A DNA stretch of 51,257 bases. Source: Candidatus Paceibacter sp. (GTDB lineage Bacteria; Patescibacteriota; Minisyncoccia; UBA6257; JAGOQP01). The notes below the pieces were generated by a model. It did no database searches and was not told the origin of the DNA. It was given only the letters and a program-made list of their open reading frames with translations. Position numbers and translations under genes: made by a program. Positions within the stretch are counted from its first letter, which is position 1. Every line of letters begins with the position of its first letter. Below are positions 16,399 to 25,518 of the stretch, in pieces. Location of the stretch: the NCBI GenBank assembly GCA_020724905.1, contig DYGB01000001.1, forward strand, positions 129,866 to 181,122, given 5' to 3'.

Positions 16399-17517
16399 CT
16401 ATCCTGATTTTATCGAGGTAATAACATACAGATATGTCTCATCTTGAGGAGATTGTATAAGACTTGGTTTTTGTTCACTATTAAATCCAAAAAACACCGT
16501 ATCAGAAGATACATGTTTTAAACCATCAAATAAGAATTTCCAGTTAAATGAAAGGGAAAGAGGTTTCCCTTCAACTTTTACCGTAAGAAGGTGTTCACTT
16601 TCACCAACCTCATGTGATGAAGAAAGAAGTTTCATATGCTTAAGATCTTCATCAATTTCTAACTTCACTTCATGAAGTCTATTTGAAAGAGAACTCACTA
16701 CTTTTAGTGCCGAAACAAATTCATCTTTGTTACACGTTACCTTTGTATCAAATTCTTTTGGTATAACAAGTTCATAATCAGGAAAGTTTCCTTCGATAAG
16801 GCGTGAGATAAGTGTTGTTGATTCTGTTTCAAATAAAACCTGACGCATATCACAATCAATACGAAGTGTACCTTTCTCATTAGAAAATATACGAACAACT
16901 TCTTGTACTGTTTTTAAAGGAATAATAAATGAATCATCATCTTGAAATGATGTATCTATTTTCTTTCCAATGTATTCTTTTTTTGCTAATCGAAAACTAT
17001 CAGTTGCAACAAACCGAAATGTAGAATGGAGCATGTGAAGAAGTACACCACTTAACTCAGGTCTAAAATCAGACATCTGAGACGCATTCATCACAGAAGA
17101 AAAACCATCAAGAAGTGTATTAATATCAAATACAACATGTTGTTTCTTTGATTCTTCGATAGAAGGGATAATAGGGAAATCATCAGGAGGTGTAGTTGCT
17201 ATCTTTGCAGTATAGTTGTCGGTATACACACGTAATACATTTCCTTCTTTTTCTAAATGTATTCTTTCAGATGAAACATTTTGAATAATTTGAAGAAATA
17301 CAGAGAACGGAATTGCAACTGATCCTTTTTCAAGAATCTTTGCAGGTATTCCATGTACTACCGCAATCTCAAGATCTGTTGCAGTGACATACACCTTATC
17401 ATCTCGAGCCTCAAGAAGAATATTTTTAAGAACAGGGAGTTGAGATGATTCCTTTTTAATACCAGAAAGTATAGAGAGACCTTCCTTTAAATTGTTTTTT
17501 AAAATAATAACATTCAT
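16399..17517 (-). CDS. dnaN: DNA polymerase III beta subunit (sliding clamp)
   Basis: 372 aa; MNVIILKNNLKEGLSILSG.., SGVLLHMLHSTFRFVATDSFRLAKKE; adjacent to dnaA. Confidence 0.93.
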   Translation of the reverse strand: MNVIILKNNLKEGLSILSGIKKESSQLPVLKNILLEARDDKVYVTATDLEIAVVHGIPAKILEKGSVAIPFSVFLQIIQNVSSERIHLEKEGNVLRVYTDNYTAKIATTPPDDFPIIPSIEESKKQHVVFDINTLLDGFSSVMNASQMSDFRPELSGVLLHMLHSTFRFVATDSFRLAKKEYIGKKIDTSFQDDDSFIIPLKTVQEVVRIFSNEKGTLRIDCDMRQVLFETESTTLISRLIEGNFPDYELVIPKEFDTKVTCNKDEFVSALKVVSSLSNRLHEVKLEIDEDLKHMKLLSSSHEVGESEHLLTVKVEGKPLSLSFNWKFLFDGLKHVSSDTVFFGFNSEQKPSLIQSPQDETYLYVITSIKSG

Positions 17518-17563
17518 ATATATATATATTATAGCTTGTAGTAGTAGTTAGTGGTGTGTGTTA

Positions 17564-17625
17564 TGTGTATAACAGTGAAACAGGTCTATTTTATCGGCTC
17601 AATGCAGTGTTGGCGGTGTGGATAA
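17564..17625 (-). promoter_or_regulatory. Two DnaA boxes in dnaA-dnaN intergenic
   Basis: TGTGTATAA 17564-17572 and TGTGGATAA 17617-17625 (reverse of TTATACACA / TTATCCACA). Confidence 0.7.
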
Positions 17626-17659
17626 AAGACTCACAACTCCTGAACGAGGAGTGGATGAA

Positions 17660-19042
17660 TTAGGAAGGGTTTTTCTGTATCTGTTCTTTAATAAGAATAA
17701 CTTTCTGATTTAAGCTTTTATTCTTCATGATTTCTTTAGAAATCTTATCATAGGAATGGATAGCAGTTGTATGATCTCTTTTACCCATCTTGTCCCCAAT
17801 ATCTGGATAGGACATCCCCAACATATCCCGCATCAAAAACATGGCAATTTGACGAGGAAGAACAATTTCTTTTCGACGTGATTTATTAATAAGATCGGCA
17901 TGTGATACTTCAAAAAAGTCTTCAACAGTCTGAATAATTTGTTGTGGTTGGATATGAACAGTATTTTGTTGCAGAGTGTTGGTGATAATATCCTCTGCAG
18001 TACGAATATCAATATCACTGTTTTTTAATTCTTTATAAAAATAGAGTTTATTCAATACTCCCTCAATTTCTCGTACATTTCTCTGTATTTTAGAGGCGAT
18101 AAGACCACACACTTCATCAGAAAGTGAAAATCCTTTCTCTTGAAGTTTATTTTTTATAATCGCTAACTTCATTTCATAATCAGGATAGGTGATATCAACA
18201 ATCATTCCCCCCTCAAATCGAGAACGGAGGCGTTCTTCAAGGGTTGGGATAGCAGCAGGGGGCCTATCTGATGAGATAATAATCTGTTTATTGTTCTGAT
18301 AGAGGATATTAAAGGTATGAAAAAACTCCTCTTCGCTTCGTTCTTTACCACCAATAAATTGAATATCATCGATAATAAGAACATCGATATTACGATACTT
18401 ACTTTTAATATCATCCATGCGTCGAGATCGAATAGCCCAGACCACATCATTTACAAAACGTTCTGAAGGAACATACTTCACTTTTTTTCTTTTTTTATGT
18501 ACGCGAACAATCTCATTTCCAATAGCTTGGATAAGATGTGTTTTCCCGAGTCCCGTACTTCCGTATACAAAAAGAGGATTGTAGCGCTTCCCTACTTCAC
18601 GAGATACAGCACTTGATGCTGCGTAAGCAAGTTCGTTTGAAGATCCAACAACAAACGAATCAAAAACATAACGAGGATGAAGATTTGTCTCAGGATCAGC
18701 TGAGAATTCTATAAAACCAACCTGATTTCCAGAAGGTTGTTCTTTTACTTTTTTAGTTTTTTCAAATAACTTCTTTTCAACTTCTTTACTACTTAGAACA
18801 ATATATTCAATACGAGTAATGGTATCATCGATGTTTTGAAGGATGTCCAAAAGCACTTTATTATATTTTCCTTGGATCCATTCCTTTGCAAAGTGACTAC
18901 TTACTCCGATAACGACAGCACCAGTATCATCATTCTTTTCAACTAATTTACTATTCTTAAACCATGTTAAAAAATTTGCTTTTGATATATGCAGTTCTAT
19001 ATCAGCGAGTGCTTGTTGCCAGAGTGTTTTAAGATCGTCCAT
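17660..19042 (-). CDS. dnaA: Chromosomal replication initiator DnaA
   Basis: Start placed at MDDLKTLWQQALADIELHISKANFLTWF (19042), not the ORF-track 19123. YNPLFVYGSTGLGKTHLIQAIGN, DVLIIDDIQFIGGKE, GKRDHTTAIHSYDKI. Confidence 0.96.
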   Translation of the reverse strand: MDDLKTLWQQALADIELHISKANFLTWFKNSKLVEKNDDTGAVVIGVSSHFAKEWIQGKYNKVLLDILQNIDDTITRIEYIVLSSKEVEKKLFEKTKKVKEQPSGNQVGFIEFSADPETNLHPRYVFDSFVVGSSNELAYAASSAVSREVGKRYNPLFVYGSTGLGKTHLIQAIGNEIVRVHKKRKKVKYVPSERFVNDVVWAIRSRRMDDIKSKYRNIDVLIIDDIQFIGGKERSEEEFFHTFNILYQNNKQIIISSDRPPAAIPTLEERLRSRFEGGMIVDITYPDYEMKLAIIKNKLQEKGFSLSDEVCGLIASKIQRNVREIEGVLNKLYFYKELKNSDIDIRTAEDIITNTLQQNTVHIQPQQIIQTVEDFFEVSHADLINKSRRKEIVLPRQIAMFLMRDMLGMSYPDIGDKMGKRDHTTAIHSYDKISKEIMKNKSLNQKVILIKEQIQKNPS

Positions 19043-19100
19043 ATGTAGATAGTATTGTATAGAAAGTAATTCAAAATGAAAGTGTTGAGAAATACACAAA

Positions 19101-19120
19101 TGTGTATAACATGTGTATAA
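19101..19120 (-). promoter_or_regulatory. Tandem DnaA boxes in dnaA-rpmH intergenic
   Basis: TGTGTATAA at 19101-19109 and 19112-19120, 11 bp apart. Confidence 0.7.
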
Positions 19121-19166
19121 CACTATTCATTGCTTTTTCAAAATCGCTTTGCTACACTGCTTGGGT

Positions 19167-23299: not shown

Positions 23300-23785
23300 C
23301 TAGTGCTGGGATAATTTTGATGTTGCAAAAAAACCAGTCGTAATTGCGACAGCTAAAGCATCAAATGCATCATCAACACCTGAGAAATCTTTAAGCTTTA
23401 ATGTGGTTTCTACAGCACGTTGTACATCTTTCTTTGGAGATGATCCGTGTCCGGTAAGGGATTGTTTTATTTGATTTGGGGTGAAGTTGTATACCGGTAT
23501 ATTGTGTTGAGCAAAAGCAAGAAGAAAGACTCCTTGGGCTTGAGAAACTTCAATAGCAGTTTTCTTGTTCTTGGAAACATACAATGTTTCAATTCCAGCA
23601 CACATGGGTTTATGTGTTTGTATAAGGGTATTAAGAGAGGCATAGAGATCTACAAATACATCAGGGCGTTTGGTTGTAGAGATGTGTAAAATTCCACCGT
23701 CTATAAAAGAAGGAGTTCGTTTATCAAATGAAATAATTCCATATCCTGCTCGTATTGAACCAGGATCAATTCCTATAATAGTCAT
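23300..23785 (-). CDS. ruvC: Holliday junction resolvase RuvC
   Basis: MTIIGIDPGSIRAGYGII, GIETLYVSKNKKTAIEVSQAQG, KKDVQRAV, DDAFDALAVAI. Confidence 0.94.
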   Translation of the reverse strand: MTIIGIDPGSIRAGYGIISFDKRTPSFIDGGILHISTTKRPDVFVDLYASLNTLIQTHKPMCAGIETLYVSKNKKTAIEVSQAQGVFLLAFAQHNIPVYNFTPNQIKQSLTGHGSSPKKDVQRAVETTLKLKDFSGVDDAFDALAVAITTGFFATSKLSQH

Positions 23786-24318
23786 GAAGTAGTAAGAGAT
23801 GTATTGGTATACACCTCAGAGACATCAGGATGATCATCTAATGCCTCAAGAAATGAAATAATGCTATCTTCTTGTTCATCTGAAACATCTTGAGGAAATT
23901 GTGCTTTCCATTCAGCTCCAGATTTTTCAAATGCCCACGTAACACTTCCTGGGTCAGCCCACTTCCCTCCCTTGTCAGTGATTATTTTTTTTAACTCAGC
24001 AACAGTACGATTCCTATTGTCGGTAAGGGCAGCGATAAGAACCGCAATACTATGAGGTCCGTACGCTTCTATAAGTAGTTCATCTACATTAGATTGTTCA
24101 CTCGATTTTTTAATAGCACGCTCAATATTATCAGAAGGAACATTTGCTTCTTTTGCTTTTTCAATAGCAGCTCTTAGGGCAGGATTAAATTGAGGATCAC
24201 TTTCTTGCCGCGCTGCTACGGAGATAAGTTTTAGAAGTTTAGAAAACACAGCACTCCTCTTTTGATCGTTCGCTGCTTTTTTGTGTTTTATTTGAGACCA
24301 CTTACTGTGTCCAGACAT
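23782..24318 (-). CDS. YebC/PmpR family protein, shortened
   Basis: MSGHSKWSQIKHKKAANDQKRSAVFSKLLKLI..; 178 aa versus ~240-250 aa typical; 4-nt overlap with ruvC. Confidence 0.92.
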   Translation of the reverse strand: MSGHSKWSQIKHKKAANDQKRSAVFSKLLKLISVAARQESDPQFNPALRAAIEKAKEANVPSDNIERAIKKSSEQSNVDELLIEAYGPHSIAVLIAALTDNRNRTVAELKKIITDKGGKWADPGSVTWAFEKSGAEWKAQFPQDVSDEQEDSIISFLEALDDHPDVSEVYTNTSLTTS

Positions 24319-24473
24319 GATATATAGAAATGGATGTTAAATATACTAGAACTCTACAAGGGAATATAAGAACATTCAATATTGACAAAAATACATATAA
24401 TCGTTCTTATATATGTATAGTGACATAGTACATAAAAATCATCATATATTTTTTCCGGAAATTTCCGGAAAAG

Positions 24474-24512
24474 TGTGGATAAGAGATTGCCGCATTATGT
24501 ATCTGTGCATAA
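24474..24512 (-). promoter_or_regulatory. Two DnaA boxes at left end of the parS-containing intergenic
   Basis: TGTGGATAA 24474-24482 and TGTGCATAA 24504-24512 (TTATNCACA on minus). Confidence 0.65.
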
Positions 24513-24666
24513 GGTGTAGATACCTATTTAAACGTCTATTTAGCTATGTATTTTAATCCTACAGGATTGATCGTATGCATAATAGATAGTATTGCCGGAT
24601 ATATATCACCCAGGATATCCACAGAAGGTTATTTTTTGATTACAGTTTATTTTTTTATCTTCATTC

Positions 24667-24702
24667 TGGGTGAAAATGTTTCACGTGAAACATTTTCACC
24701 CA
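24667..24702. promoter_or_regulatory. parS: parS-type ParB-binding site in a 36-bp perfect palindrome
   Basis: TGGGTGAAAATGTTTCACGTGAAACATTTTCACCCA; core TGTTTCACGTGAAACA at 24677-24692 equals the canonical parS. Confidence 0.9.
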
Positions 24703-24722
24703 CTTTAACATCGAAATATGAG

Positions 24723-24750
24723 ACAAAATGTTTCACGTGAAACATTTTGT
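24723..24750. promoter_or_regulatory. parS: Second parS-type site in a 28-bp perfect palindrome
   Basis: ACAAAATGTTTCACGTGAAACATTTTGT; core 24729-24744. Confidence 0.9.
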
Positions 24751-25029
24751 TTAAAATGAAAAAGTCCGGCAAAACACGAAATGGCTTAAAATAGGGCTAT
24801 ATGTGAATTATTGCCAGACTTTGCCGGAAAAAAGAACACGAAAATGTTTCACACTATGTTTCACACCTAAAATAGCTTTATTTTAAGCGGTAGATGACTT
24901 TTTGCCGGAATATAAACGAGTCTGGCAAAAATTATAAAGTATGCAAAGATTTTTTCTTTAACAATGTTTTCATAAATTATAAGTGTATTATCGAATCTAG
25001 TAGGTATAAGGTATAATAAAAACACTAAA

Positions 25030-25518
25030 ATGATTTTAATAAATCATATATATAACATTCCTTTCTGTGAAAAGAGACGAGCAGGAATAATCGTTCTTTT
25101 TAAGGCGACGATATTTTTTCTTGTAATTAAAATACCACTAGTCCTTCTTGAAATTGATAGTTTTTTTCTAAACGTATGTTTATATGGAATTGTTATACTG
25201 TTTGTGATCTACAAATTTCTCAGAATACATTTTTTCTGTTTTTCTTTTGGAGAAGAAACCTTAACAATACACTGTGGAATAACAGGTAAGATACGAGATA
25301 GAGTTCCATACAAAAGGATAGAAAAGATACACATAAAGAAAAGAAAAGAATGTATTAGTGTATTACAGGTACATGTAAGAAAGGACCATGAAGAGATAGG
25401 GCTCATTGATAGCGTGTCATTCATCCTGGGGTGTGCTCAGAAAAAAAGAATGTATGAACTGTACATGATTGATTCCCATGCAATGTCGGCTCAATCGTTT
25501 ATAGAAGAGAGGATGTAA
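25030..25518 (+). CDS. Membrane protein with bacterial PH-like (bPH2/YdbS-type) domain
   Basis: Two TM helices followed by FGEETLTIHCGITGKIRDRVPYKRIEKIHIKKRK. Confidence 0.6.
   Translation: MILINHIYNIPFCEKRRAGIIVLFKATIFFLVIKIPLVLLEIDSFFLNVCLYGIVILFVIYKFLRIHFFCFSFGEETLTIHCGITGKIRDRVPYKRIEKIHIKKRKECISVLQVHVRKDHEEIGLIDSVSFILGCAQKKRMYELYMIDSHAMSAQSFIEERM

Follow-up and report, generated by a model that had tools for sequence, protein, structure and literature searches.

Results

The window, that is, the whole stretch of 51,257 nucleotides analysed here (G000:C7:129866-181122), belongs to a 575,572-bp assembly (G000) that is 98.5% complete. At positions 24319-25029 it holds an intergenic region with divergent genes on either side: yebC (TACO1/YebC; 23782-24318, minus strand), which is also the left neighbour in relatives, and ORF162 (25030-25518, plus strand), whose 162-amino-acid product has no Pfam family and a weak match to the bacterial PH domain. 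In relatives, other ORFs take the place of ORF162 on the right of the putative origin. The gene dnaA (17660-19123, minus strand) is located 5.6 kb from the parS sites described below and is accompanied by dnaN (16399-17517, minus strand). An Rfam search of the window returned tRNAs only, and no other structured RNA.

Two parS sites, both exact copies of the 16-bp consensus (TGTTTCACGTGAAACA), were found in this region at 24677-24692 and 24729-24744, with a start-to-start distance of 52 bp. The first is contained in a 36-bp perfect palindrome (24667-24702) and the second in one of 28 bp (24723-24750). The canonical cores and the lengths of symmetry proposed in a first-pass annotation of this DNA were thus borne out, whereas its statement that the flanks differ between copies held for the outer arms only, the inner 24 bp (AAAATGTTTCACGTGAAACATTTT) being common to both. 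The region was also non-coding as proposed, though partly made up of an eroded yraN (UPF0102) remnant (24440-24640, approximate limits, minus strand). With up to three mismatches allowed, four matches to parS occurred in the window as compared to 0.45 expected, and none of 100 shuffles gave four. The genome-wide scan that the same annotation had called for (up to two mismatches) returned only these two sites in the 0.58-Mb genome, and the pattern read backwards, used as a control, had no match genome-wide.

The inner arm of the second site (24717-24728, plus strand) reads TATGAGACAAAA, and a TATGGTTCAAAA-like element is kept beside this parS in most family relatives. Two half-parS repeats (TGTTTCACAC twice; 24845-24866, plus strand) were the only copies of this sequence on the 181-kb contig, and 8 of the 11 genomes had non-parS copies of TGTTTCAC close to parS. 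In Pseudomonas aeruginosa, ParB binds half-parS motifs (PMC10419367). A 17-bp inverted repeat (88%; 24784-24800 and 24872-24888) flanks the half-parS pair, and a comparable long inverted repeat adjoins parS in several relatives.

As had been noticed from the sequence, neither parA nor parB is present in the window; both lie adjacent to each other at about 46-48.7 kb of the same contig (C7), at a distance of 107 kb from parS. The search of the genome for parB, parA and smc recovered all three, with SMC and ScpA encoded elsewhere in the genome, so a gene of the ParB/Noc family, on whose presence the centromere reading had been made to depend, does exist. ParB, a protein of 381 amino acids, matched TIGR00180 (E 1.6e-51), and its closest structural neighbours were Spo0J, Noc and Caulobacter ParB. 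Aligned with the latter, it displayed G170, K171, S172, R173, N178 and R204, thus including the residues of the parS-type helix-turn-helix (R173, N178, R204), together with a GHRR form of the CTP motif (GxRR). At position 201 it had Ser, the residue seen in 27 of 31 ParBs inspected across the order; Gly201 has been reported as invariant in ParB (PMC7383237). The translation of the adjacent parA contained the deviant Walker A motif KGGVGKT. The SMC (contig C4, L252:645-2798) has only about 717 amino acids, with both head halves and no hinge domain match in Pfam, and may be a short, hinge-less SMC. On contig C8 (5,369 bp), another ParB-like gene accompanies an endonuclease-like ORF and a possible coat protein gene; by its appearance a virus or mobile element, this contig may belong to another organism.

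Among the 80 genomes compared (G000 and 79 relatives), 39 had parS within one mismatch and 76 had a ParB match, which in 72 was above the curated cut-off. The comparison with relatives suggested in the first-pass annotation placed the palindromes at the same location, between yebC and ftsH, in all ten family relatives having parS, where they were flanked by dnaA/dnaN-PBP-ruvC-yebC on one side and by VTT-ftsH(-rpsA-gyrA) on the other, as far as the contigs reach. Some order-level relatives retain one or the other neighbour. In 9 of the 11 family genomes the two sites were separated by 52-54 bp, and in several other families by about 48 bp. Close pairs in other bacteria had spacings anywhere within the range searched (37-67 bp), and helical phasing as a rule was discarded on this ground. 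Thus, of the earlier suggestion that 52 bp corresponds to about five helical turns, the distance itself stood, being typical of the family, and the phasing was not borne out. Regular parS arrays occurred in some relatives (loci L019, L021, L025, L059 and L064): G017 has five sites at intervals of exactly 48 bp, and G024 and G069 have repeats of 52 bp. These arrays resemble the iterons of plasmid centromeres.

In 35 ParB-positive genomes of the order, no parS was found within one mismatch. The f4 genomes had hybrid sites (TGTTCCACGTGAAACA). A second parS family in the ParB-positive genomes without parS was discarded, the pattern TGTTYCRCGYGRAACA having given scattered single matches only. Two genomes, G003 and G063, had parS while ParB was not found, but neither absence was read as genuine: G063 is 84% complete, and in G003 the gene may be concealed by masking near 464-536 kb, for which reason this genome was discarded as a counter-example.

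Symmetric arms of at least 5 bp beyond the 16-bp core were considerably more frequent than in shuffles, both in the order (20 of 72 sites vs. 3.7 expected) and in other bacteria (29 of 189 sites vs. 1.1). The effect is therefore general: the extended symmetry described in the first-pass annotation is real, but instead of being particular to this site it is common at parS in many bacteria. The two arms of one site matched far more often than arms swapped between sites, and the arm sequences varied between species while the symmetry was kept. This persistence, the excess over shuffles and the strong hairpins predicted on the single strand (z -7.2) are what could be expected if the arms were functional, a hairpin, cruciform or bidirectional terminator being selected around parS. 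We regard this explanation as unlikely, given that 26 of the 72 order sites had no extension, that the flanking genes diverge and need no terminator, and that other 16-bp perfect palindromes at the same loci were extended about equally often (arms of at least 6 bp, 21% against 24%, in a small control set). Moreover, in G005 one arm was the exact mirror of a sequence kept on one side only in relatives, as template switching predicts. Template switching has been shown to generate hairpins by mutation and to make them perfect (PMC8794818), and the frequency of extension in other palindromes together with the mirrored one-sided flank of G005 favour it over selection. The arms are thus probably by-products of template-switch repair on the palindrome, and not extra ParB contacts. 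An intrinsic terminator was discarded separately, since there is no convergent transcription between the divergent genes and one weak terminator-like match only was obtained. A search of the open-access literature for papers on parS with cruciforms or palindromes gave nothing relevant.

Two features of the intergenic region had not appeared in the first-pass annotation, namely a likely oriC and a second, undescribed repeat system. Regarding the former, the region contains a DnaA box (TTATCCACA; 24474-24482, minus strand) kept at oriC in all 11 genomes, in one of them via a shifted copy, a one-mismatch box (TTATGCACA; 24504-24512, minus strand) and a DnaA-box-like sequence (GATATCCACAG; 24614-24624, plus strand) identical in the 11 genomes. 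In every one of these, TTATCCACA was at most about 500 bp from parS. In relatives, TTATCCACA and GATATCCACAG lie inside yraN (UPF0102) beside parS, as SYPH and CGY codons, respectively, at a distance of 163 bp in 9 of 10. The UPF0102 gene was not found anywhere in the G000 genome, and alignment of the G000 intergenic region with yraN displayed near-random identity except for the two boxes (CTGTGGATATC identical in 11 of 11 genomes, and TTATCCACA in 10 of 11, G010 differing at this place but carrying another exact box close by). Of the sequence evidence for a role of the two boxes at the origin, their retention after the loss of yraN is the strongest.

The cumulative GC skew of the G000 contig was minimal and flat at 145-160 kb, with parS at 154.5 kb. 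In G003, a single contig, the sampled skew changed from negative to positive between 120-125 and 125-130 kb, with parS at 124.6-124.9 kb, and the opposite switch came at around 400 kb, a distance of roughly half the chromosome. Both a DnaA-box cluster kept in relatives and a GC-skew switch, as expected for a DnaA-dependent oriC, were therefore present, and oriC likely lies in the same intergenic region as parS, a position close to the origin that fits a chromosomal ParABS centromere. The breadth of the skew minimum in G000 would also allow parS to be a genuine centromere while replication starts elsewhere, most likely between dnaA and dnaN, where the intergenic stretch (17518-17659), which could contribute to the origin, has two boxes (17564-17625), one matching TTATCCACA exactly and the other with a single mismatch; the boxes beside parS would then regulate nearby genes or titrate DnaA. 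This appears improbable as compared with an origin beside parS, since the skew switch of G003 is less than 5 kb from parS and the boxes beside parS were maintained in 11 genomes, even without the gene that had encoded them.

As to the repeat system, the intergenic region contained ten copies of TT(G/T)CC(A/G)GA vs. 0.06 expected. They include variant copies (TTTCCGGAAATTTCCGGAAA; 24452-24471) beside the DnaA box, TTGCCGGA at 24592-24599 (plus strand), TTGCCGGACT at 24763-24772 (minus strand), TTGCCAGACT and TTGCCGGA at 24811-24828 (plus strand), and two copies in opposite orientation at 24902-24928 (TTGCCGGA on the plus and TTGCCAGACT on the minus strand). Within 497 of 576 kb (86% of the genome), the full motif TTGCC(A/G)GACT occurred 13 times, with 3 copies at oriC and 10 in one ORF. 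Motif copies bracketed the DnaA box of oriC on both sides in 6 of 11 genomes and on at least one side in 10 of 11. The variant tended to follow the genome, with TTGCCGGACT in G006, G008, G010 and G012, TTTCCGGAAA in G009 and G011, and AATTCGGCAATT in G033.

The ORF carrying the 10 copies (C7:105167-106036, minus strand; L071:5167-6036) is located about 49 kb from oriC, with a DnaA box (TTATCCACA) about 6 bp upstream. In its product, a helical segment at the N-terminus is joined by a variable linker, for which the stretch with the 10 copies codes, to a winged helix at the C-terminus (HTH_DeoR, E 7e-5); comparison with the PDB found no relative of the protein. Homologues, identified by protein similarity and hence independently of the motif, were present in 11 of 13 family genomes and in several members of the order, about 22-62 kb from parS where both share one contig. 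In most of them the region coding for the linker likewise has an array, the G005 homologue, with few copies, being an exception. The arrays are read in different frames (SPAK, SGN, VRQ), indicating that the motif is conserved in the gene as DNA and not as peptide. Repeated 9-mers common to matched gene-origin pairs reached a score of 233 vs. a permuted mean of 94, without kinship correction, and none of 20,000 permutations attained it; the same score averaged 0.16 in 105 control ORFs.

Short repeated uptake signals exist in other bacteria. That the motif, itself short and repeated, is such a DNA-uptake signal or a dispersed repeat unlinked to the origin is nevertheless highly doubtful, in view of the restriction of the full motif, within the 497 kb, to oriC and one gene and the covariation of gene and origin variants between species.

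Discussion

The two palindromes almost certainly represent an ordinary chromosomal ParABS centromere in a reduced genome. The first-pass annotation had already suggested a chromosome-segregation centromere, and the presence of ParB, ParA, SMC and ScpA and the conservation of the sites lend support to it. Against it speak the Ser at position 201 of ParB and the 35 ParB-positive genomes of the order in which parS was not found within one mismatch. The oriC-proximal parS sites of known chromosomal systems (Bacillus Spo0J/Soj, Caulobacter ParAB, P. aeruginosa parS1-4) have the same 16-bp core, and share with G000 multiple sites overlapping or adjoining oriC, the set of ParA, ParB and SMC, and half-parS motifs (PMC7022226, PMC10419367). 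In contrast to them, parAB of G000 lies 107 kb from the origin, the close pair constitutes the whole set of sites, residue 201 of ParB is Ser, and the sites share their intergenic region with conserved DnaA boxes. Nucleoid occlusion by Noc at NBS sites (Q173, R201) was rejected: ParB shows some likeness to Noc, with a TIGR04285 score below the cut-off (203.8 vs. 315), but it has R173, its residue 201 is not that of Noc, and the site is parS and not NBS. No paper on parS in Patescibacteria was found in the open-access literature searched.

The region 24319-25029 would accordingly act as a compound of oriC and centromere. ParB dimers would load at the two parS sites as CTP-dependent clamps, then spread over the origin and recruit SMC, and ParA would move ParB in such a way that the origins, once replicated, are the first to separate. 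DnaA would open the same intergenic region, firing of the origin and segregation thus being coupled by adjacency.

On balance, our data slightly favour the existence, in Parcubacteria of this order, of an undescribed origin regulator, a winged-helix protein binding a species-specific motif (TTGCC(A/G)GACT and variants). The repeats are probably sites of the protein encoded about 49 kb away; these candidate sites bracket the DnaA box of oriC and surround parS, and with an array of the same sites in its own gene the protein could regulate itself or be titrated in step with replication. Origin regulators with dedicated sites at oriC include SeqA, CtrA and RctB. The present case resembles them in having a species-specific repeated motif beside the DnaA boxes of oriC and a candidate DNA-binding protein, and differs in that this protein has no family beyond a weak DeoR-type helix-turn-helix and in that the array lies in its own coding sequence. 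The motif and the winged-helix gene are the new part of this work, and their function is one that we infer from the genomes compared.

The idiosyncratic arms around parS in many phyla provide a data set for examining whether a palindromic protein site can induce mutation by template switching. For this barely studied group with reduced genomes, independent lines of evidence locate the origin and the centromere, with both the ParABS genes and their sites retained at a genome size of about 0.58 Mb, and point to a candidate control of replication initiation that would consist of one gene, one motif and one origin.
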